From Actinomycetes bacterium (lineage in GTDB: Bacteria; Actinomycetota; Acidimicrobiia; Acidimicrobiales; Acidimicrobiaceae), in assembly GCA_021799035.1 (NCBI GenBank), contig JAJZBG010000003.1, positions 1 to 64,000 of the forward strand: a stretch of DNA of 64,000 nt. Direction: 5' to 3'. Shown here piece by piece: positions 24,463-51,101 of this stretch. Positions within the stretch are counted from its first letter, which is position 1; each line of letters opens with the position of its first letter. Made by a program: the position numbers and the translations under genes. The notes below the pieces were generated by a model, which was given only the letters and a program-made list of their open reading frames with translations, was not told the origin of the DNA and ran no database searches.

Positions 24463-27400
24463 CTACTCTTTGTCTCCCTCGAAACTCAGGCCGAAAAACC
24501 GCTCGAAGAATGCCCCGAGTCGCGCGAGCACACGTTGTTTCTTCACGCCGTGACCGCCGTCGGAAGAGAAGCGTGAGACTGGAGGGAGGATCTTTGTGAC
24601 GGCTGTTCCAGCGGTTGGAATGGCACCGTCGCGAAAAGCACGCTCGATAAACTTCCTAGTCTCGTCTGGACTTAATTCTTCCTGAGCGATGATGTCGTCA
24701 AGCTCAGCTATTCGCTGGGCATCGACGAACGCTCGCCACTCTTCATCGATCTTGCCGCTGGCAGAGACTGAATCAACGAAGGTCATGATGAGATCCTTCT
24801 TGTTGCGTAACGAGAGGCTGGAGTCAATCGCACGCTGAATCTGCGTGATCGCCTCTGTCTCCTTGTCCGTACCGTCTCCCCGGGCTTCACGCCATTTCTG
24901 GACGAGCATAAGGATGTAATCGACGTTGATCTCGACCTGCTTTATTAGCTCAATCTCAAAGACGATATCGTCGTTAATTGACTCCTTATCAGCGTCACCG
25001 ATTCGCCGAAAGTTAGCGTAGAGATCGAGATATACGCTGCGGTAGTCCTGGCTTTGTCGCTCGGTGAGAATCTCGTTGTCAGCGAACTCGTCGAACGAAG
25101 TCAGGATGTTCTGCAAGCGAAGAATTGCACCAAAGAGCGAAATGAAGTCCTTCTGTGCCGCTTCACCGACGATCTGAGTACCTGGCGGGTACTTCGTGAG
25201 CAGCTCTTGGGCGCGCTCGGCGTATTCGGTGTAGTAGTCGTCATAGGGCTTGAGCAGTACGATGCCGCGAGCATCTTTGTTTCCGAATAATGCGATGGCG
25301 TTATTGGTCTCTTCTTCTAGATCACGGAAGGAGACGATGTTGCCGTAGGTCTTTACTGAATTCAGAATTCGATTAGTGCGTGAGTAGGCCTGCAGGAGTC
25401 CATGGTTTACAAGGCGCTTATCCGCGAAAAGCGTGTTGAGAGTCGTTGCATCAAATCCGGTGAGAAACATGTTCACGACGATGACGAGGTCGATCTCGCG
25501 ATTCTTCAGCCGTAGCGACAAATCTTTGTAGTAGTTCTGGAATTTGTCTGAAGAGGTGTCAAAGCTGGTACCAAAGAAAGCGTTGTAGTCCTTGATTGCA
25601 TCGTCGAGGAAGTCACGCGATGGCCGGTCAAGCGCGTTTGTCTCGAAACCCTCTTCATCAAGGTAGTCATCTCCAATGTCTTCGTTTGGGGCATAGGAGA
25701 AGATGATGCCGATCTTGAGCTTGCGGTCGGAAAGCAAGTCTCTCTGCTGGATCTTAAACTCGGCGTAGTATCGCTTTGCTGCGTCGATCGAAGCCGTTGC
25801 GAAGAGCGCATTGAACCCATGGACATGCTTGCCCGGCACTGAGTAGTGTTCGGCCCGCTTGGTCTTTTGATTGAAGTGCTCCAGCGTGTAGGCGACGACC
25901 TGGCGGAGTCGCTCCGGGGCGAGCAGTGCACGCTCGGTGTCAATGGCTGAAACCTGCTTATCAGCCAGACCTTCGGAGAGCTTGATGGTGTTCACATAGT
26001 CAATGCGAAATGGCAGGACGTTCTTGTCACTAATTGCGTCGACGATTGTGTAGGTGTGCAGCTTGTCGCCAAAGGCCTGCTCGGTGGTTCTCAGATTCGG
26101 GTTGCCACCACTGCTCGAGTTCCCAGCGAAGATCGGCGTGCCGGTGAAGCCGAACAGGTTGTAGCGCTTGAACGCCCGGGTTATTGAAGTGTGCATGTCA
26201 CCGAACTGAGAGCGGTGGCATTCATCGAAGATAATCACGACATGTCCGCCATATATTGCGTGACCCTTATTACCGGCGATGAAGGTCGACAGCTTCTGAA
26301 TTGTTGTGATGATGATCTTGGCACCTGGGTCTTCTAACTGCTTCTTGAGCACGGCCGTAGAGGTGTTCGAGTTAGCGGCGCCTCTTTCGAAGCGGTCGTA
26401 TTCCCTCATTGTTTGGTAGTCAAGATCCTTGCGGTCCACGACAAAGAGCACTTTCTCTACATCACTGAGCTTCGAGGCGAGTTGGGCGGCCTTGAAGCTG
26501 GTCAGCGTCTTGCCTGATCCAGTGGTGTGCCAGACATACCCTCCTGCGGTAATCGTACCGAGTTGTTTGTAGTTCGTGGAGATTTCAATCTTCCGCAGGA
26601 TCCGCTCGGTGGCGACTATCTGATAGGGACGCATCACCAGCAAAAGCTTGTCGGCAGTGAGTACGCAATAGCGGGTCAGGATATTTAGCAGGGCATGCTT
26701 TGCGAAGAATGTCTTCGTAAAACCTGCGAGATCCTGGATTGGTTTATTGGTGGCATCCGCCCACCACGAGGTGAACTCGAACGAGTTCGAGGTCTTGCGC
26801 ACCTTCTTCGATCGGGTACTCTCGTCCAAGTGTTGACGTCGGGTGGTGTTGGAGTAGTACTTAGTCAACGTACCGTTACTGATTACAAAGAGCTGCACGT
26901 ACTCAAAGAGACCAGAGCCGGCCCAAAAGCTGTCTCGCTGATAGCGGTCAATCTGGTTGAATGCCTCACGAATATCAACGCCACGGCGTTTGAGTTCAAC
27001 ATGCACGAGTGGCAGTCCATTGACAAGAATCGTTACGTCATAGCGATTCGAACGAGCAGCGCCACCATCGTCCTTACCGATCTCGTACTGATTGATGACC
27101 TGCAGTCGGTTGTTGTGGATGTTCGTCTTGTCGAGAAGCATGACGTTCTTCGTTGAGTTGTCATCTCGCTTTAGGACCTGGATGTGGTCGTCATGGATGC
27201 GGATGGTCTTCTCGACGATGCCATCGTTCGCTCCGGCGATCTTCTCACTGAAGAAACGCTTCCATTCGGATTCCGAGAAAATGATTGAGTTCAGGGTCTC
27301 AATCTGAGTGCGGAGGTTATTGATAAGTTGCGCTTCACTCGTGATCGGAAGGAACTCGTATGCCTGTGACTCCAGCAGTTTGATGAATTCTCGTTCCAGG

Positions 27401-27516
27401 TCCGCCTCGGACTGATAAGCGGCGTCAGTTGATGCATCCGGGATAAATTCTGCAACGACCGTACTTTCCGAGCTGACGGCAATCGGTTCGTATCGGCTTG
27501 CCTTAGCCTCGTTCAC
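24463..27516 (-). CDS. hsdR: Type I restriction enzyme, R subunit
   Basis: A 1017-residue motor and nuclease subunit. The N-terminal nuclease domain has VHVELKRRG near residue 172 (PD-(D/E)xK type). The SF2 translocase follows with GSGKT near residue 332 and DECHRSQFG near residue 429. It works with HsdM and HsdS to cut unmodified DNA after ATP-driven translocation. Its start overlaps the hsdS stop by ATGA, so the three subunits are made together. It appears full-length and intact. Confidence 0.95.
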   Translation of the reverse strand: MNEAKASRYEPIAVSSESTVVAEFIPDASTDAAYQSEADLEREFIKLLESQAYEFLPITSEAQLINNLRTQIETLNSIIFSESEWKRFFSEKIAGANDGIVEKTIRIHDDHIQVLKRDDNSTKNVMLLDKTNIHNNRLQVINQYEIGKDDGGAARSNRYDVTILVNGLPLVHVELKRRGVDIREAFNQIDRYQRDSFWAGSGLFEYVQLFVISNGTLTKYYSNTTRRQHLDESTRSKKVRKTSNSFEFTSWWADATNKPIQDLAGFTKTFFAKHALLNILTRYCVLTADKLLLVMRPYQIVATERILRKIEISTNYKQLGTITAGGYVWHTTGSGKTLTSFKAAQLASKLSDVEKVLFVVDRKDLDYQTMREYDRFERGAANSNTSTAVLKKQLEDPGAKIIITTIQKLSTFIAGNKGHAIYGGHVVIIFDECHRSQFGDMHTSITRAFKRYNLFGFTGTPIFAGNSSSGGNPNLRTTEQAFGDKLHTYTIVDAISDKNVLPFRIDYVNTIKLSEGLADKQVSAIDTERALLAPERLRQVVAYTLEHFNQKTKRAEHYSVPGKHVHGFNALFATASIDAAKRYYAEFKIQQRDLLSDRKLKIGIIFSYAPNEDIGDDYLDEEGFETNALDRPSRDFLDDAIKDYNAFFGTSFDTSSDKFQNYYKDLSLRLKNREIDLVIVVNMFLTGFDATTLNTLFADKRLVNHGLLQAYSRTNRILNSVKTYGNIVSFRDLEEETNNAIALFGNKDARGIVLLKPYDDYYTEYAERAQELLTKYPPGTQIVGEAAQKDFISLFGAILRLQNILTSFDEFADNEILTERQSQDYRSVYLDLYANFRRIGDADKESINDDIVFEIELIKQVEINVDYILMLVQKWREARGDGTDKETEAITQIQRAIDSSLSLRNKKDLIMTFVDSVSASGKIDEEWRAFVDAQRIAELDDIIAQEELSPDETRKFIERAFRDGAIPTAGTAVTKILPPVSRFSSDGGHGVKKQRVLARLGAFFERFFGLSFEGDKE

Positions 27517-28754
27517 ACCAAAGCCTCCTCAAAAGTTAGGAGACGGTTTCGGTAGTGTTCGTACTGCTTGCGACGAGCGTTTAGCTCGGCGGGGAGGCCC
27601 GCCGACAGATCGTTCACAAGTGCATCAAACTTGTCGAGGATGTCGACGATTCTGTCTTGCTCCTCTCGAGGTGGAAGCGGGATCTCGATTTTGGCAAGAT
27701 TCTTTGCCGACACGTCAATAACCTTCGTACCCGAGGCATATTTGCGCTTCGCTAGAGAGAATTCGGTTGTCTGGAAGAAGTACGCGAGGTACTTCGCGTT
27801 TTGGGTGTGTTTGATCACCGTAGCGTGTCCGCCCGTGACGACTTGCTCGCGACCGAGCCATGCGACGGCTTTGCCCACGTCGTCGATGTTTTCGCTTGTA
27901 TTGGTAATCACGATGTCGCCGGAATCGACCTTGGCGAGCTTGGCTGCGGTGTTCGGCGAAACAAAGGACTTGGTCTGGGTCGCCCAGGTACCGTAGTAGG
28001 TATAGATCTGACCGTAATGGATAGCGCCGATGCCAGAATCCGTGAAATCAGTTTTGGGCATCCCGTTTCCTCGGACGAGTTTGGCGAATTCACCCATCGG
28101 AATCCTCGGTACCCCCCCCGTTTCAGGGAAGCTCAGCAGCGTATTCCGGTAGTAGGCGTACTGACGACGACGGGCTTCCAGCTCTGCTTCCAGCTCTGCT
28201 TCCAGCTCTGCTTCCAGCTCTGCAAAGGTATCGAGGATACGTACGATTTCCTGTTGTACTTCGAGGGGTGGGATGGGAAACTTAAAGTGCTTAAATGCAG
28301 ACATGTCGACTGCAGCAAAACTGGAGGTCGTGATATTACTCCGACACCATTCGTCGAGCACGAAACAATAATAGAAAACAAACTTCATATCGAACAGCCG
28401 AACAAAGTTTGGCTTGGGCCATAGCGCCGTGAACCTCTGGTTTGACATGAACGGGATCGTGATCAGCGCATGTTCACCAATCGTTGCGGATGTGGCGAGA
28501 ATAATCGAGTTTGCAGGGAACAGCCTGCCGCCTTTCACGGCGGACGCAGGAATGTGCTGGATAGCGTCGTCTAGTATTCGACCGTTTTCCCGTATATCTT
28601 CCATGCGGAACCATGGAATCGTTCCATTAGTCCAGTTCGAGACATCGGCCTTTGATGGCGTATAGCCATTCCGCATTTCAAAAATGTCAGCCAGTGACTG
28701 GAACTCAACGCCCTTCGGGCAGAACTTCTCGATAAGTTCACCAATCCCACTCAC
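27513..28754 (-). CDS. hsdS: Type I restriction enzyme, S (specificity) subunit
   Basis: A 413-residue protein with two target-recognition domains. Each is followed by a conserved helical spacer: the central one ends ARRRQYAYYRNTLLSF and the C-terminal one ends ARRKQYEHYRNRLLTF. The central spacer contains four AELE units encoded by perfect 12-bp repeats. The subunit selects the bipartite DNA target for both methylation and cleavage. It overlaps hsdM and hsdR by 4 bp each. Confidence 0.93.
   Translation of the reverse strand: MSGIGELIEKFCPKGVEFQSLADIFEMRNGYTPSKADVSNWTNGTIPWFRMEDIRENGRILDDAIQHIPASAVKGGRLFPANSIILATSATIGEHALITIPFMSNQRFTALWPKPNFVRLFDMKFVFYYCFVLDEWCRSNITTSSFAAVDMSAFKHFKFPIPPLEVQQEIVRILDTFAELEAELEAELEAELEARRRQYAYYRNTLLSFPETGGVPRIPMGEFAKLVRGNGMPKTDFTDSGIGAIHYGQIYTYYGTWATQTKSFVSPNTAAKLAKVDSGDIVITNTSENIDDVGKAVAWLGREQVVTGGHATVIKHTQNAKYLAYFFQTTEFSLAKRKYASGTKVIDVSAKNLAKIEIPLPPREEQDRIVDILDKFDALVNDLSAGLPAELNARRKQYEHYRNRLLTFEEALV
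28176..28223 (-). repeat. 12-bp x4 tandem repeat in hsdS
   Basis: TTCCAGCTCTGC is repeated four times without a mismatch on the plus strand. On the coding strand each unit encodes AELE, in the spacer between the two recognition domains. The unit length keeps frame, so copy-number slippage would lengthen or shorten the spacer and alter the target, as with the TAEL repeats of the EcoR124 family. Confidence 0.9.
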
Positions 28755-30316
28755 AACGTACCCTCCAGGTCCGCAACAATCGCGTCGATCTGGTTACGGA
28801 GCTCTTGTTGATGCTTGACAATTCGGGCAATTTCGGCATTCAGAGACGTGATGTCGACAGCTTCGCTATTGTCCTCCCGTTCTACATAGGAGGAAACAGC
28901 GATGTTGTAGTCGTTGGTCTTGATGTCCTCGTAAGGGACGAGTCTGGCAAAGTAGTCCTCGGATTTGCGCGTCGTGAATGCATCGAGGATCCTCTGCTGG
29001 TTAGCTTCGGTGAGCTTGTTCTTGTTACCACCTCGGACGTACTCAGCTGAAGCGTCAATAAACAGAATTGCACTATCCTTTTTGGATTTCTTCAGGACGA
29101 GAATGCAGGTCGCAATGGTCGTGCCGAAAAAGAGATCCGGCGGAAGTTGAATGACCGCATCGACGTAGTTGTTGTCAACGAGGTACTTGCGGATCTTCTG
29201 CTCCGCACCTCCACGATAGAGCACACCTGGAAACTCGACAATGGCAGCCGTGCCGTTCACGGCCAGCCAGTGGAGCATATGCATGGTGAAGGCTAGATCA
29301 GCCTTCGACTTCGGCGCGAGTACGCCGGCTGGTGCGTAGCGAGGATCGTTGATTAGCAGCGGGTTGGCGTCACCCTCCCATTTAGTGGAGTACGGAGGAT
29401 TAGAGACGATAGCCTCGAACGGCTCTTCGTCCCAATGGGCTGGATCAAGCAGCGTGTCGCCATGAGTAAGGTCGAATTTCTCGTAATTCACGTCGTGTAG
29501 GAACATGTTGATGCGAGCTAGGTTGTAGGTCGTCAGGTTGATCTCCTGGCCAAAGAAGCCCAAGCGGACGTTGTCCTTGCCGAGTACCTTGGCGAACTTC
29601 AGCAGCAAGGACCCAGAACCGCATGCAGGGTCGTAGACCTTGTTCACGGAGGTTTTACCGACTACCGTAATTCGAGCAAGCAGCTCGGATACTTCCTGTG
29701 GGGTGTAATACTCGCCTCCTGACTTACCTGCACTCGACGCGTACATCTGCATCAGATACTCATAAGCATCGCCAAAGGCATCGATGGTGTGGTCGGAGAA
29801 ACTACCAAGACCGAGATCACCGATGGCATCCAGGAGCTTGACTAGCTTCTCATTGCGCTTGGCCACCGTCTGTCCGAGCTTGGCACTGTTTACCTCAAGA
29901 TCGTCGAATAGACCTTTCAAGTCGTCTTCTGAGTCGGTGCCGACTGCGGAACCTTCGATGTTCTTGAATACTCGCTCAAGCGTTTCGTTCAGGTTCTCGT
30001 CGTTAGCGGCACGTTTGCGGACGTTGGCGAAGAGTTCGCTTGGAAGGATATAGAAGCCCTTTTCGGCCACCGTCTCCTTTCGTCCAAACTCTGCCTGGGG
30101 GTCGCTCAGCTTGGCATAGTCGAAGTCGGCCTGTCCAGCACTGCGCTCGCTAGCGTTTAAGTAAGCAGTCAGGTTTTCAGAGATGAAACGGTAGAAGAGG
30201 ATTCCGAGCACGTATGTCTTGAAGTCCCATCCATCGACGCTGCCACGCAGGTCGTTGGCGATACGCCAGATGGTCTTGTGCAGCTCGGCACGCTGGGTCT
30301 CTTTGGTCAGGCTCAT
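28751..30316 (-). CDS. hsdM: Type I restriction enzyme, M (methyltransferase) subunit
   Basis: A 521-residue adenine-N6 DNA methyltransferase. It starts with the HsdM N-terminal helical domain. DPACGSGSLLLKF near residue 228 is the AdoMet-binding motif and NPPYSTKW near residue 304 is the catalytic motif. With HsdS it protects host DNA; with HsdR it forms the restriction complex. Its start overlaps the Mrr-like gene by ATGA. Confidence 0.95.
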   Translation of the reverse strand: MSLTKETQRAELHKTIWRIANDLRGSVDGWDFKTYVLGILFYRFISENLTAYLNASERSAGQADFDYAKLSDPQAEFGRKETVAEKGFYILPSELFANVRKRAANDENLNETLERVFKNIEGSAVGTDSEDDLKGLFDDLEVNSAKLGQTVAKRNEKLVKLLDAIGDLGLGSFSDHTIDAFGDAYEYLMQMYASSAGKSGGEYYTPQEVSELLARITVVGKTSVNKVYDPACGSGSLLLKFAKVLGKDNVRLGFFGQEINLTTYNLARINMFLHDVNYEKFDLTHGDTLLDPAHWDEEPFEAIVSNPPYSTKWEGDANPLLINDPRYAPAGVLAPKSKADLAFTMHMLHWLAVNGTAAIVEFPGVLYRGGAEQKIRKYLVDNNYVDAVIQLPPDLFFGTTIATCILVLKKSKKDSAILFIDASAEYVRGGNKNKLTEANQQRILDAFTTRKSEDYFARLVPYEDIKTNDYNIAVSSYVEREDNSEAVDITSLNAEIARIVKHQQELRNQIDAIVADLEGTL

Positions 30317-38756: not shown

Positions 38757-40523
<1,767 letters not shown>

Positions 40524-44983: not shown

Positions 44984-45979
44984 CTATACCTTGAATGAAC
45001 TCTGCACCCCGGCGGGAAACAGCTCCTCCACCTCCAGCGGCCTATGGGTCACTCCCTGATCATATGTGAAACGAAGAAATGAGCTGAGCGTCACCCTGTT
45101 TGGCTCCACGCCATAGGGCCAATATCCATCTTCACCGAATAGCTCGGCAATCCTGCCCGCAAACACACGTGACCAAGGGAGCGGGAAGCGACTGGCAGTC
45201 ACGTCGAACAACCTTTCGACCGAACGCCTCTTCGCCTCCTCGAAAGCTTTGAGCAGGTTCATTGCTATCCAGGGGTACTGCTCAACGACCGCTTTCTTGA
45301 TGGCCACCACGTGCATGATCGGAAATATCTTCGTCTTCTGCCAGTACTCGTATTCAGCCTCTTGGTAGTCGACGAGGATCCGCCTCACCCTTGGATCGCC
45401 CTCCTCAACCGAATGTGGGGCGTGAGCAGACATCGCGACATCGATCTCACCGGAAAGAAGCATCTCGTTCAGTGATTTGGTCGGCTCGGACCTGTAACTG
45501 ACTCCCGCGGGAATGCGTAGGCTCACCTTTTCCACCCTTCCCGGATCATTCACGCCTGCCTGGACCCACTCAATGTCTGTCAAGGGAATCCCAACAGTCT
45601 CCGTCAGGTAGCCCCTCGAGTACACGGCAGCAGTCTGCGCCCATTCAGGAATGCCTACCTTCAATCCGCGTATCTCGTGGATCGTCGTCGGACCGTCGCT
45701 GCGCACGTAGAAAGACGACTGCCTGAAGACACGAGAGGGAAATACTGGTATGGCGGTTACATCACAATCTGGTTGAGAAACGAGCGAGACGTATTTGGCA
45801 AACGACAACTCGCACACGTCGAACTCCCTGAACTTCAAGAACCTGTAGAAGATCTCCTCGACCTGCAAATCCAACGCCTGAAGCTCGACGCCCTCCACCG
45901 GAACGACCCCATTGGTCAGATCACGAACGTGATCGTAGTCACTGATTGCAAGAGTTAGCTTTACAGCATTCTTCCCCAA
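44984..45979 (-). CDS. 4,5-dihydroxyphthalate decarboxylase-like protein
   Basis: A 331-residue protein of the family that includes 4,5-dihydroxyphthalate decarboxylase and resembles periplasmic-binding folds (NMT1-like). LTLAISDYDHVRDLTNG is the typical opening and FPIMHVVAIKK lies in the middle of the fold. There is no signal peptide, which argues for a cytoplasmic enzyme. The start is a TTG with GGGGG six bases upstream. Family members often lack proven activity, so decarboxylation is only likely. Confidence 0.75.
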   Translation of the reverse strand: MGKNAVKLTLAISDYDHVRDLTNGVVPVEGVELQALDLQVEEIFYRFLKFREFDVCELSFAKYVSLVSQPDCDVTAIPVFPSRVFRQSSFYVRSDGPTTIHEIRGLKVGIPEWAQTAAVYSRGYLTETVGIPLTDIEWVQAGVNDPGRVEKVSLRIPAGVSYRSEPTKSLNEMLLSGEIDVAMSAHAPHSVEEGDPRVRRILVDYQEAEYEYWQKTKIFPIMHVVAIKKAVVEQYPWIAMNLLKAFEEAKRRSVERLFDVTASRFPLPWSRVFAGRIAELFGEDGYWPYGVEPNRVTLSSFLRFTYDQGVTHRPLEVEELFPAGVQSSFKV

Positions 45980-46253
45980 CTGAAACCCCCAACTAGCTAC
46001 TGAGAAAAGGCTCTATGACGGATGTTTTGCGCTAGTACCATCGTGATCAACGTTGCCAACAATCACAACCGAGCTGTAGACGGCAAAGCGTTATGCGCCC
46101 AAACTTCAAGCGCCGTTACCTACGTGTTCCCATGGTATCAGAGGGGAGCACTCCGTTACTTCAGCAAGATGCCGCTCAAAATACTGACTGACTCACCAGA
46201 GACCCCTTGCAATGAAACCTCGCAATAAGCGAGGGCTGGATTACGGATGTGCC

Positions 46254-46259
46254 TATAAT
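46254..46259 (+). promoter_or_regulatory. TATAAT -10 box of a leaderless transcript
   Basis: A perfect TATAAT ends seven bases before the GTG at 46266, so transcription would start at or beside the first base of the start codon. There is no ribosome site. The -35 region is poor. Confidence 0.55.
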
Positions 46260-46265
46260 GTTGCG

Positions 46266-46586
46266 GTGGACGAGGAATCAGTTTTCGACCATCTCAGAGC
46301 TTTCGTGCAAGAACGCGACTGGACTCAGTTTCATACCCTGGAAAATCTAGCTAAGAGCATATCGATAGAAGCCGGAGAACTTCTCGAATGCTTCCAATGG
46401 AGCGATGACTCTTCGACAGCGAAAGTTGAAGACGAACTGGCCGATGTGCTCACATACTGCTACTTGCTTGCTGATCGACTAGGAGTCGATCCAGGGGAAA
46501 TCGTACTGAGGAAGCTCGAGGCCACTCGTACTAAGTACCCAGTGGACAAGGCGCGAGGGCGGAGCGCCAAGTATGACGAGCTTTAG
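46266..46586 (+). CDS. MazG-like nucleotide pyrophosphohydrolase
   Basis: A 106-residue all-helical NTP pyrophosphohydrolase of the MazG-like/dCTPase group. EAGELLECFQW and EDELADVLTY hold the acidic metal-binding residues (ExxE and ExxD). The GTG at 46266 is chosen because it gives the family's usual beginning (MDEESVFDHLRAFVQERDW) and sits just after a TATAAT box. An upstream ATG at 46212 is less likely. It overlaps the next gene by 14 bp. It hydrolyses nucleoside triphosphates to monophosphates; beside a helicase-nuclease it may be part of a phage-defence pair. Confidence 0.85.
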   Translation: MDEESVFDHLRAFVQERDWTQFHTLENLAKSISIEAGELLECFQWSDDSSTAKVEDELADVLTYCYLLADRLGVDPGEIVLRKLEATRTKYPVDKARGRSAKYDEL

Positions 46587-48294
46587 GATACAACAACTTC
46601 CACTTTCAAGCCTCTCTCGCGATGGACTCCTTTTCAGCGATGCGCGCTTCAGCAACTGGCCTGTTGTCTACACCTTGAACGACGACAAGCGCGTTTATGT
46701 TGGAGAGACGCTGAATTTCGCCGTTCGGATGAGCCAACATCTCTCATCACAAGAGAAAAAGAGCCTCCGCATCGCAAGGATAATTCTCGACGATACCTTC
46801 AACAAGTCCGTTTGCCTCGACCTCGAATCGTACTTGATCCGCTTGTTAGCCGGCGATGGCAGATTCCAGGTGATGAACCTGAATGACGGGATCACCGATT
46901 CCAACTACTTCGACCGCTCGCGCTATCGGGAGGTCTTTGCCGAAATATGCGACAGGTTGCGGGAGCAGGGGCTCTTTGGGCAAACGATCACAGAGATTGA
47001 AAACAGCGACCTGTTCAAGCTCTCGCCGTTCAAATCTCTGAACATTGACCAGATGGTCTCGATTCAAACTCTGCTCGCAAGCCTTCTTGGTGACATTGAT
47101 CAAAAGACATCGAGCACTAGCGTCATCAGGGGAGATCCCGGAACTGGCAAAACGATAGTCGCAATCTTTTTGATCAAACTGCTCCGAGATATCCAAACCA
47201 CTTCCCTAGATGATGATCCAACGACTGACTCGCCCTTCGCCGAGTTCTTTACTTCGAGAAATCAGGACCTGCTCAAAGAGCTTCGTGTGGGATTAGTGGT
47301 CCCGCAACAGTCTCTCAGACGCTCGATCCAAAACGTATTCAAGCTGACCCCTAAACTTGCAGCTGACCTGGTGCTGTCGCCTTTCGAGGTGGGAGAGAGC
47401 GACAAACCATTCGACGTGCTAATTGTCGACGAGGCTCATCGGCTGAGTCAGCGCGCAAATCAGCCTTCCGCTGCGCAAAATAAAAGGTTCAAAGCAATCA
47501 ACTACTCTCTTTTTGGAAAAGATGACGATTCGGTCAACCAACTCGATTGGATAACAGAGAAAAGCACACATCGGGTTTACCTTCTCGACATGGCTCAGAG
47601 CGTGAGGCCCGCGGATCTTCCGATACAGATCCAGGAGGGGCTCATCGAAAAGGCCAGGGAAACCAGGCGGTATTTCGAACTACGATCCCAGATGCGCATA
47701 AAAGCTCACGAAGACTACGTCGGCTACGTGAGAGCTCTGCTAAGCCCTGAGCCACCCACAAAGCGCTTGGAGTTTGACGGCTATGAACTGCGTCTGTTCG
47801 ACGATGTTCACAAACTTCGTGACGAAATAATCAAGCGCGACAGCGAAGCAGGCCTTTCCCGCATGGTAGCAGGCTTCGCCTGGCCCTGGAAAAGCAAAAA
47901 GGATCCGACTGCTCATGATATCGAACTCGATGGCCTGAAGCTCAACTGGAACGGAAAAGCAATTGACTGGATCAATTCAGCGAATTCGCTCTACGAGGTA
48001 GGGTCGATCCACACGGTGCAGGGATATGATCTCAACTACGCCGGCGTCATCATCGGCCTTGATCTTCGCTACGACCCGGGGTCCAAAAGCCTTTATATTG
48101 ATCGAAAGAACTACTTCGATGCAAAAGGCAAGGAGAACAACAAGCGATTGGGGATTACCTACACCGACGAAGATCTCTTGCTGTTCTTGACGAATATATA
48201 TGGGGTTTTGCTAACCAGAGGGATGCTTGGAACCTATGTATACGTTTGCGACCCGAATCTTCGTGACTACTTTCGACAGTTCATAGGCACATAA
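46573..48294 (+). CDS. GIY-YIG nuclease fused to a DUF2075 SF1 helicase
   Basis: A 573-residue protein. The N-terminal part (about residues 25-110) has VVYTLNDDKRVYVGET, a GIY-YIG nuclease signature. The rest is an SF1-like helicase of the DUF2075 family, with GDPGTGKT near residue 187 and VDEAHRLSQ near residue 286; TVQGYDLNYAGVIIG forms motif V. It overlaps the MazG-like gene by 14 bp, so the two act together. Such proteins occur in defence islands, but the substrate is unknown. Confidence 0.85.
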   Translation: MTSFRIQQLPLSSLSRDGLLFSDARFSNWPVVYTLNDDKRVYVGETLNFAVRMSQHLSSQEKKSLRIARIILDDTFNKSVCLDLESYLIRLLAGDGRFQVMNLNDGITDSNYFDRSRYREVFAEICDRLREQGLFGQTITEIENSDLFKLSPFKSLNIDQMVSIQTLLASLLGDIDQKTSSTSVIRGDPGTGKTIVAIFLIKLLRDIQTTSLDDDPTTDSPFAEFFTSRNQDLLKELRVGLVVPQQSLRRSIQNVFKLTPKLAADLVLSPFEVGESDKPFDVLIVDEAHRLSQRANQPSAAQNKRFKAINYSLFGKDDDSVNQLDWITEKSTHRVYLLDMAQSVRPADLPIQIQEGLIEKARETRRYFELRSQMRIKAHEDYVGYVRALLSPEPPTKRLEFDGYELRLFDDVHKLRDEIIKRDSEAGLSRMVAGFAWPWKSKKDPTAHDIELDGLKLNWNGKAIDWINSANSLYEVGSIHTVQGYDLNYAGVIIGLDLRYDPGSKSLYIDRKNYFDAKGKENNKRLGITYTDEDLLLFLTNIYGVLLTRGMLGTYVYVCDPNLRDYFRQFIGT

Positions 48295-48479
48295 GGCTTA
48301 GGTCTTTCTTCTTGCCTGGATCCAAGTTCCCTTCCAACCGTTCGCCTGACAAACGCGTCGAAAGGTCCAACAGTGATGGAAACGACTCTGAATGTCAGCA
48401 GATAGAGCCATTTGAGCCGGACATGAAAGCCCCAACAGCGCAGCTAGGCGCGCTCAAAGAGACCGTTGAAGCCTTGACG

Positions 48480-51101
48480 CTAGTTTTTCGCGCGCAAAAC
48501 AGCCTGAGCTGCAGCAAGGCGCGCTATCGGAATCCGGAAGGGCGAGCATGAGACATAATCCACTCCGGCATGAACAAAAATCTCGATCGAAGCAGGATCG
48601 CCCCCGTGCTCACCGCAGACTCCAACCTTCAGAGAAGGCCTTGTAGCTCGGCCTCTTTCCACCCCTATCCTCACCAGCTCTGCGACGCCACCTGGGTCTA
48701 GCGTCTTGAATGGATTGGCAGGCAACAACCCGAGATCGATGTAGGTCGCCATGAGACGGCCTTCGACATCATCCCTTGAAAAGCCGAATGTCATCTGAGT
48801 CAAGTCATTCGTGCCGAACGAGAAGAAGTCCGCAGCCTCTGCTATCTCATCTGCCCTTATGGCCGCTCGCGGGGTCTCGATCATTGTGCCGATCGTGATC
48901 TCCAGCCCTTTGACCTTTTGGCCATCAATAGCATCCTGCACCCACGATCTCGCCAGTGCAAGCTCTTCTCTGGTAACAGTCAAAGGAATCATTATCTCGA
49001 CTACCGGGTTCTTCCCCTTTTTCTTCAGCTCCGCAGCGGCCTGAAGCAGGGCCTTTACCTGCATGGCGTATAGGCCAGGCTTGATGACCCCGAGACGGAC
49101 TCCCCTTGTCCCGAGCATTGGATTGACCTCTTTCCATGCTTTTGCCGCAGCAAATAGTGCTGCCTCCTCAGGAGTGAGGCCCATTGTGGCCTCTTTTATC
49201 GAGAGGTCGAGCGTATCTGGAAGGAACTCGTGCAAAGGTGGATCCAGCAGTCTGACCGTGACTGGCAGCCCATCCATCGCTTCGAGGATTTCTTTGAAAT
49301 CGAACTTCTGCGCGGCCCTTAGCTCCTCGAGTGCCTCCAGCTCGTCATCTGGAGTGGCAGCAAGAATCATCTTCCTTACGATCGGAAGCCGGTCCTCCGC
49401 CAAGAACATATGCTCAGTTCTACAAAGGCCAATCCCTTCGGCACCGAACGAACGGGCCTTGGCGGCATCGGGCCCATTATCTGCATTGGCCCTGATCGCA
49501 ACTTTTCCAAAACGAATCTCATCAGCCCACTTGAGTATTGTCTGAAACTCTGGTGGAGGTGTTGAAGATGTCAACTCCACGGCTCCCAGGACCACATCAC
49601 CGGAGGTGCCATCTATTGAGATCTCGTCACCCTCGAATACAGTGGTTCCGCTTGCGATGAATGACCTGCCAACGATTCTCACCGCGTCGGCTCCGACCAC
49701 TGCGGGCTTGCCCCAACCTCTTGCCACTACAGCAGCATGGCTTACAAGTCCTCCCCTGGAAGTGAGCACCCCCTCTGAGGCGAGCATCCCATGGACATCG
49801 TCGGGGGATGTCTCTTTGCGCACCAGAATGACCTTTTCACCCTTCTCGCTAGCAGCTATGGCGTCCTCCGCGGAGAAGTACACCTTTCCCACCGCAGCGC
49901 CGGGAGAAGCCCCCAGACCTCTGGCAATGACATGGAGGTCTTTCGCGGCGAACTGCGGGTGAAGCACAGAGTCAAGGTGGTCGGCGGTAATGCGAAGCAC
50001 AGCCTCTTCCTTGGTCAACGAGATTTCAGGCTCATTGGTCATATCCACCGCCATGTGCAGCGCCGCGACCCCGGTCCTCTTGCCTATCCGGGTCTGAAGC
50101 ATCCAGAGCCTTCCGCTCTCAATGGTGAATTCGGTATCGCACATGTCCCGATAATGAGCCTCCAGGCGATTAAAGATTTCGACCAGCTGCGAGAAAATCT
50201 CCGGGAACCTACCCTGCAAAGCCATGAGCGGCTCTGTGTTGCGAACCCCTGCAACCACGTCTTCGCCCTGAGCGTTCACCATGAAATCGCCGTACATTCC
50301 CTTTTCACCGGTGGCTGGATCTCTTGTGAAACCAACCCCCGTACCTGAATTGTCATCCCTGTTTCCGAAGACCATCGACTGTACGTTTACGGCCGTTCCT
50401 AGATCATTGGGGATTCCCTCTCGTCTTCGATAGGCGATGGCACGAGAGCCGTTCCATGAAGCGAACACAGCTTCTATCGCGCCCCTCAACTGCTCCAAAG
50501 GCTCCTGAGGAAACGGCTTGCCGGTATGGCGCTCAACGATGTCTTTGTACGCTGCGGTCAGATACTTCAAAAGCTCAGACGGAACCTCGGAATCGATCGA
50601 TGCGCTGGAGAGCTCCTTTGCCGCTTCGAAGAGCTTGTCAAACTCATCGCCTGGAACACCAAGCACGATCCTTCCGTACATGGCAATGAATCGCCTATAG
50701 GAGTCGTAGGCGAATCTTAGATCGTTAGTCTGAGCAGCGAGCCCCTCAACCGAACTGTCGTTGAGACCGAGATTGAGAACGGTATCCATCATTCCCGGCA
50801 TAGAGAATTTCGCGCCTGATCTGACCGACACCAGCAAAGGATATGAAGGGTCGCCCAGACTTTTGCCCATTTTCTTCTCTAGCGCAGAAATAGCCTTGGA
50901 CACCTGATCGGTCAAGTGCTGTGGCCACCCAGAGGAGAGATACTCCCTACAGGCCTCGGTCGTGATCGTAAATCCAAAGGGCACTGGAAGTCTGAGGACC
51001 GAGGTCATCTCAGCCAGGTTCGCTCCTTTGCCTCCCAGGAGGTCTTTGAGCTCCATTGGCGGACGCGGGTGTTCGTGGTCAAAGTCAAACACGTATTGCA
51101 T
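48480..51101 (-). CDS. ppdK: Pyruvate, phosphate dikinase
   Basis: An 873-residue enzyme that interconverts pyruvate, ATP and phosphate with phosphoenolpyruvate, AMP and pyrophosphate. The N-terminal ATP-grasp region has GGKGANLAEM. The phosphohistidine domain has GGLVSHAAVVARG near residue 450. The C-terminal TIM barrel has the catalytic cysteine in VGVCGEHGGDP near residue 826. Full length for the family. It converges with the helicase gene; no strong terminator was identified in the 185-bp gap. Confidence 0.96.
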   Translation of the reverse strand: MQYVFDFDHEHPRPPMELKDLLGGKGANLAEMTSVLRLPVPFGFTITTEACREYLSSGWPQHLTDQVSKAISALEKKMGKSLGDPSYPLLVSVRSGAKFSMPGMMDTVLNLGLNDSSVEGLAAQTNDLRFAYDSYRRFIAMYGRIVLGVPGDEFDKLFEAAKELSSASIDSEVPSELLKYLTAAYKDIVERHTGKPFPQEPLEQLRGAIEAVFASWNGSRAIAYRRREGIPNDLGTAVNVQSMVFGNRDDNSGTGVGFTRDPATGEKGMYGDFMVNAQGEDVVAGVRNTEPLMALQGRFPEIFSQLVEIFNRLEAHYRDMCDTEFTIESGRLWMLQTRIGKRTGVAALHMAVDMTNEPEISLTKEEAVLRITADHLDSVLHPQFAAKDLHVIARGLGASPGAAVGKVYFSAEDAIAASEKGEKVILVRKETSPDDVHGMLASEGVLTSRGGLVSHAAVVARGWGKPAVVGADAVRIVGRSFIASGTTVFEGDEISIDGTSGDVVLGAVELTSSTPPPEFQTILKWADEIRFGKVAIRANADNGPDAAKARSFGAEGIGLCRTEHMFLAEDRLPIVRKMILAATPDDELEALEELRAAQKFDFKEILEAMDGLPVTVRLLDPPLHEFLPDTLDLSIKEATMGLTPEEAALFAAAKAWKEVNPMLGTRGVRLGVIKPGLYAMQVKALLQAAAELKKKGKNPVVEIMIPLTVTREELALARSWVQDAIDGQKVKGLEITIGTMIETPRAAIRADEIAEAADFFSFGTNDLTQMTFGFSRDDVEGRLMATYIDLGLLPANPFKTLDPGGVAELVRIGVERGRATRPSLKVGVCGEHGGDPASIEIFVHAGVDYVSCSPFRIPIARLAAAQAVLRAKN

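Follow-up and report, generated by a model that had tools for sequence, protein, structure and literature searches.

An overlapping pair of genes in the window, the whole 64,000-nucleotide stretch of DNA analysed here, is probably a mobile two-gene module directed against phages and other mobile elements. The first gene encodes a MazG-like nucleotide pyrophosphohydrolase; the second encodes a single polypeptide with a GIY-YIG nuclease domain and a superfamily 1 (SF1) helicase domain of Schlafen group 3. The genomic context of this candidate supports defence, and the mechanism proposed below is one that we infer. The sequence-only reading of the same DNA had suggested that the pair could hold back phage DNA synthesis and at the same time break down foreign DNA; such a dual action remains a proposal.

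The two genes and their products

The coordinates of the pair and of the features around it are collected in Table 1. The overlap of 14 bp claimed from the sequence is exact to the base, and the domains named there, MazG-like and GIY-YIG/DUF2075 helicase, were recovered with Pfam (PF12643, PF01541 and PF09848). A longer mazG reading frame is present in the list of open reading frames (ATG, 46212-46586, +, 124 aa); the GTG at 46266 is the start in register with relatives.

Table 1. Positions of the gene pair, its signals and neighbouring elements in the window
Feature	Position	Strand	Description and evidence
mazG-like gene	46266..46586	+	106 aa from GTG; all-alpha nucleotide pyrophosphohydrolase, DCTPP1-like; Pfam, PDB sequence searches, AF2, Foldseek, catalytic residues
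GIY-YIG + SF1 Schlafen-group-3 (PF09848/DUF2075) helicase gene	46573..48294	+	573 aa; Pfam, AF2, structural matches, 43-sequence alignment
mazG end / helicase start overlap	46573..46586	+	14 bp, ATGACGAGCTTTAG
GIY-YIG domain	46660..46857	+	aa about 30-95; Pfam, AF2, alignment
SF1 helicase domain	47119..48252	+	Pfam, alignment
TATAAT -10 element	46254..46259	+	begins 12 nt ahead of the mazG GTG; leaderless promoter predicted
GGAG, Shine-Dalgarno-like	46561..46564	+	8 nt before helicase ATG, within mazG; sequence, locus scan
Inserted segment	45996..48473		synteny and homology break-points; pair is sole content
hsdR (type I R-M)	24463-27516		
hsdS (type I R-M)	27513-28754		
hsdM (type I R-M)	28751-30316		
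Recombinase-like ORF	38757-40490		by eye; terminates at tRNA-Met 40447-40523

The first protein matches the MazG-like family PF12643 at 6.9e-23 (81.1 bits, cut-off 27). Residues R17, W19, H23, E35, E38, E41, E57, D60 and K83 are invariant in all 29 sequences compared, and the AF2 model is all-helical (pLDDT 86.9). Fold and the E..E / E..D metal-binding set place the protein among the dCTPase-like all-alpha NTP pyrophosphatases. Foldseek returned the mouse dCTPase with 5-Me-dCMP (6sqw) at the top and 4qgp among the best matches, and the PDB sequence search gave 6.6e-34 for DCTPP1/AF1178; E. coli MazG and iMazG lie far behind mouse dCTPase and AF1178. With DCTPP1 (RS21-C6) and the archaeal AF1178 the window protein shares fold, sequence and the catalytic E/E/E/D/K set, and its R-D-W, Q-F-H and Q-W motifs align with theirs. 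Because it is closer to DCTPP1 than to E. coli MazG, the trimming of nucleotide triphosphates envisaged in the sequence-only reading can be narrowed towards deoxycytidine-type nucleotides, and its substrate may be deoxycytidine-type triphosphates. Unlike DCTPP1, it is bacterial and stands in an operon with a nuclease-helicase, and its substrate preference here is suggested by homology.

The second protein matches PF09848 (SLFN-g3_helicase, which we take to be the former DUF2075) at 9.4e-65 (219.6 bits) and PF01541 (GIY-YIG) at 8.6e-6 (26.4 bits, cut-off 22.6). In all 43 helicases aligned, the nuclease residues Y33, Y42, G44, R52 and E85 are invariant, as are the helicase Walker A (G187..GK193), DE286-287, Q373, R375 and R549, the motif VI arginine. 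The AF2 model has a pLDDT of 91.4. Its secondary structure (E31-36, E40-46, H49-58, E67-73, H78-95) follows the beta-beta-alpha-beta-alpha order of GIY-YIG nucleases, and the domain carries the catalytic Y..Y-x-G..R..E set; this assignment rests on Pfam, on that order and on weak PDB profile matches to EndoII, UvrC and I-TevI. VIA structural matches cover mainly residues 103-573, the helicase part, and include UvrD (Z 20.8, rmsd 3.7), SLFN11 (Z 19.4, rmsd 3.9 over 276 residues) and RecD2 (Z 17.7, rmsd 3.9). Together with the PF09848 match, the Walker A/B motifs and the motif VI arginine, they place this part among the SF1 helicases of Schlafen group 3. Since the catalytic motifs are invariant, the AF2 models good and the structural matches present, the active sites of both proteins are intact and both are predicted to be active.

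The PF09848 helicase domain is common to the window protein and the group III Schlafens (SLFN11, SLFN14, SLFN5). Schlafens carry their own RNase core at the position where the window protein has GIY-YIG. Unlike them, the window protein has no match to a Schlafen RNase core family in Pfam at E 0.001, and a Schlafen protein proper was rejected as an identification. Either DNA or RNA could be the substrate of the helicase-nuclease. Some other PF09848 helicases that adjoin MazG (L107, L113, L123, L020, L104 and L009; about 620-670 aa) show no GIY-YIG domain. No Pfam family is matched by the ~240 aa at their N-terminus, where a different nuclease may lie.

Expression signals also recur. In 97 of the 103 loci scanned (L022-L101 and L164-L190), a TANNNT box begins 12 nt (71 loci) or 13 nt (26 loci) ahead of the MazG start. 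Among 714 neighbouring ORFs of at least 200 aa, such a box was found at the first start in 34, and at any start within the first 60 codons in 64. Given promoter spacing in actinobacteria, a distance of 12-13 nt would let transcription begin on the start codon itself, yielding a leaderless mRNA; the near-universal box marks a promoter that is conserved across many genera and probably leaderless. Among the 82 loci whose genes overlap by 14 bp, 67 have a GGA/GGAG-type motif with at least three matching bases within mazG before the helicase start, a count made without a shuffled control.

Recurrence, insertion and mobility

Relatives were sought with a helicase alignment of ten sequences, each species being represented by one genome. 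This gave at least 577 confirmed relatives, of which the best 80, all actinobacterial per their records, were used. At 73 of these best 80 of at least 577 loci, the helicase is preceded by MazG in the same orientation, about 1.1 kb off in one of the 73 (L063); at one locus (L070) MazG is downstream of the helicase. At the remaining six MazG was not found, and one of them (L099) ends at a contig end. Coupling of the two genes, as proposed from the sequence, finds support in the same set: a start codon permits the identical 14-bp overlap at 60 of the best 80 of at least 577 loci, and the overlap is 4, 11 or 20 bp at others. A conserved third gene was sought in these 80 loci, again the best of at least 577, and the next commonest neighbour families reach only 7 of 80, so the system comprises two genes.

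The pairing holds in other samples. Of 119 genomes in the genus to which the Microbacterium ulmi locus belongs, 30 match (27 full-length copies, three remnants only); MazG is upstream of all 27 full-length copies, with an overlap of 14 bp in 15 and 4 bp in 12. In 396 genomes of the window's phylum, strong PF09848 matches (8e-53 or better) occur at 39 places in 36 genomes, and MazG adjoins 18 of the 39, upstream, downstream or divergent, including helicases without Pfam-visible GIY-YIG. At one locus (L119) the arrangement is divergent, with MazG and helicase on opposite strands. On annotated plasmids, two of the seven regions opened have a 'nucleotide pyrophosphohydrolase' adjoining the helicase: downstream and beside R-M genes in Ligilactobacillus salivarius, and upstream in the archaeon Halalkalicoccus jeotgali. 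Recurrent pairing, on which the sequence-only reading had staked its case, is thus borne out by the three ratios above (73/80 in the best 80 of at least 577, 27/27 and 18/39).

These numbers bear on the simplest alternative, that a chromosomal MazG gene happens to stand beside an unrelated helicase. The housekeeping flanks in the window would suit such chance neighbours; the recurrence, the same overlap and the common promoter box speak against them, as does the fact that a search of the 2.47-Mb genome found no PF12643 gene besides the window copy. Chance adjacency is hardly credible and was rejected on the recurrence of the pair.

The association is not rigid. A FastTree tree of 123 helicases, used only for counting changes of arrangement and read with a warning of long branches, requires at least 22 such changes, so the MazG-helicase association has been re-formed or lost many times. 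Excluded from the tree were loci L164-L207, proteins shorter than 500 aa and 20 loci whose helicases were partial, duplicate or too distant. In 27 of its 123 rows the helicase has no adjacent MazG. The same holds for two of seven members in the window's family. MazG is therefore not strictly required, and the 27 rows fit a core cutter with an enhancing partner. At two loci (L141 and L142, in G264 and G255), two different PF09848 helicase genes stand in tandem without MazG. On a Limosilactobacillus fermentum plasmid (L018, 5908-7632), a GIY-YIG helicase lies immediately upstream of type III CRISPR cas6 and cas10.

A toxin-antitoxin-like or addiction module, in which one partner restrains a toxic other and the element is thereby retained in the cell, would share with the pair two coupled genes and a presence on mobile elements; MazG genes also adjoin mazEF in E. 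coli. Neither partner looks like an obligatory antidote, however, because the helicase lacks MazG in those 27 of 123 rows, and in two genomes (G013 and G018) the helicase is broken next to a MazG that is still open. Both proteins also keep complete enzyme motifs, and addiction is a quite improbable explanation. In the two draft assemblies just named (loci L003 and L205), the helicase frame is broken and the overlapping MazG frame is still open, which reflects either decay or an error of the draft assembly.

Distribution within the window's own lineage is patchy. Seven of 42 genomes of the family match, the window's own included, and two of nine in the genus; MazG adjoins the helicase in five of the seven and is absent beside it in G011 and G037. 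The surroundings of the window copy are housekeeping genes, as the sequence-only reading had noted: adh, a 331-aa ORF without Pfam match, ppdk and glyS. Its description of the pair as a separate island also held, for the same ppdk-sbp intergenic site lacks the pair in four congeners (G002, G005, G006 and G008). There, ppdk is followed by the next gene after about 330-375 bp; in the window the distance is 2.5 kb, and the pair alone fills it. Homology stops on the left at 45963-45995 and restarts on the right at 48474-48499, and no target-site duplication was seen by eye at the insertion.

One of these congeners, G006, carries the pair at another site, on a contig that opens with tRNA-Lys and a tyrosine-type integrase. 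In two viral contigs the pair lies directly 3' of an endolysin gene, a usual site of prophage cargo; it is followed by an integrase and tRNA-Met in one (L102), and a tRNA-His lies 3.6 kb further in the other (L104). The pair is accessory and is cargo in two prophages. It is rare in the collections of phage records and viral contigs, which yielded only four matches and four loci, respectively. The sequence-only reading had passed over other features of the window: about 6-22 kb upstream of the pair lie a type I R-M system and, next to tRNA-Met, a recombinase-like ORF; the stretch 18728-40490 is probably an integrated element, ~6 kb from the pair.

Defence-rich neighbourhoods and the proposed mode of action

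A survey of the pair in defence islands, as the sequence-only reading had suggested, gave a positive answer. Around 24 loci, the two nearest genes per side (96 genes) matched 196 PADLOC models at 1e-8, and 96 genes at the far ends of those stretches matched 189. In the control, drawn from the surroundings of glyS in 20 of these genomes, 96 genes matched 27. These figures count models, which are redundant and overlapping, and not genes, and many control matches carry names that housekeeping proteins also match (dGTPase, SspA/DndA, DnaG-like). Of 56 full-flank loci, 34 were drawn at random and 24 passed the filters; the GC3 gene filter fails in low-GC genomes, and such loci were dropped. The control used 96 of 99 eligible genes from 20 of the 24 genomes. 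Near and far flanks hardly differ, and the contrast is only with the control; this is expected if defence islands are longer than 10 kb. Named near neighbours include PD-Lambda-1, SspE, PbeA, a type IV restriction endonuclease and Pfam GmrSD, and farther ones GajA, JetA and HEC-01; the flanking genes vary between loci. The pair is thus enriched among defence genes and present on mobile elements, in prophage and tRNA-integrase contexts.

Such a setting has to be weighed against a house-cleaning or repair operon, in which MazG would clear away dNTPs that are damaged or non-canonical and repair of DNA containing them would fall to the GIY-YIG helicase, serving the host under stress and not against phages. 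DCTPP1-type enzymes clean 5-methyl-dCTP (PMC10742078). The repair protein UvrC is among the weak GIY-YIG matches, the window copy sits among core genes, and a NUDIX/MutT-like family, recognised by eye, neighbours 4 of the 80 loci (the best 80 of at least 577). Core repair genes, however, would not be expected in about a quarter of one genus's genomes, at prophage cargo sites and in defence-rich neighbourhoods. A repair operon is an improbable reading, and both it and an addiction module fit mobility and context worse than an anti-phage module does. Several points do count against defence: helicases without MazG, the broken helicase frames of G013 and G018 (both draft assemblies), the isolated window copy among housekeeping genes, the absence of a PADLOC model that covers either gene, and the redundancy of the model counts with their near-equal values for near and far flanks.

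As an anti-phage module, the pair would work as follows; where transcription begins, which nucleic acid is attacked, what MazG hydrolyses, how the two proteins act together and protection itself are all proposals. Transcription would begin at the leaderless promoter and MazG would be translated first, with the helicase translationally coupled to mazG through the 14-bp overlap. The GIY-YIG-SF1 helicase would engage nucleic acid, most likely DNA, that is invading or replicating, and cut it, the motor serving to find or unwind the target. This attack is the most likely first step, given intact motifs and context. The DCTPP1-like MazG would then hydrolyse dCTP-type triphosphates and leave the invader short of precursors for replicating its DNA and for mending the cuts; alternatively, it may destroy the invader's modified dCTPs. 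Draining or cleaning of the deoxycytidine triphosphate pool is the most likely second step, as homology suggests.

A more specific version can be imagined and is rather unlikely to be correct. Here MazG would specifically hydrolyse dCTP, or else the modified dCTPs of the phage type (5-methyl-, 5-hydroxymethyl-), and its partner would be a Schlafen-type helicase in which GIY-YIG replaces the RNase core. One arm would clear the modified precursor and the other would cut nucleic acid carrying it, under a constitutive leaderless promoter and borne by prophages against competitors.

Relation to known defence systems

PADLOC 2.0.0 holds no model that covers either gene: none matches MazG, and matches to the helicase are partial and weak. 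The candidates PDC-S14 and PDC-S41 were rejected, the former matching only ~aa 37-106 and the latter only aa 362-566. SNIPE (PD-Lambda-1), presumably a defence nuclease of DUF4041 plus GIY-YIG, shares a nuclease of the GIY-YIG kind with the window protein, which has a helicase instead of DUF4041; it was rejected, as DUF4041 is absent in Pfam and no PD-Lambda-1 model matches at 0.1. Genes of the DUF4041/PD-Lambda-1 kind do turn up in the neighbourhood of the pair.

Two broader classes come close. Gabija, Nhi and Hna are nuclease-helicase defences and have a nuclease and a helicase-type motor in common with the pair. Unlike them, it has another nuclease, GIY-YIG and SF1 in a single polypeptide, and a MazG partner; the Nhi model matches the helicase over only 30 residues around Walker A. 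Nucleotide-depletion defences, such as dCTP deaminase and dGTPase, attack the dNTP pool as antiviral effector, which is also proposed here; unlike them, the pair would use pyrophosphohydrolysis joined to a nuclease-helicase.

DefensePredictor names MazG and MazG-C as predicted, unvalidated and uncharacterised defence domains; GIY-YIG and helicase are absent from its text (PMC13092281). A literature search, covering few subscription papers and no preprints, found no description of a MazG and GIY-YIG-helicase pair. The components are of known kinds, and their combination appears undescribed in the literature searched.

The pair is a small, widespread and testable candidate defence module not covered by PADLOC 2.0.0, known from actinobacteria, from plasmids of a lactobacillus and a haloarchaeon, and from prophages. 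Through sequence or fold, it connects defence in prokaryotes with two families of human proteins, DCTPP1, which cleans the dNTP pool, and the Schlafen helicases. Cooperation of pool attack and nucleic-acid cutting would also bear on the MazG domains predicted as defence. If the more specific version were true, a dCTP-clearing MazG acting with a GIY-YIG Schlafen-type helicase would represent an undescribed antiviral principle.
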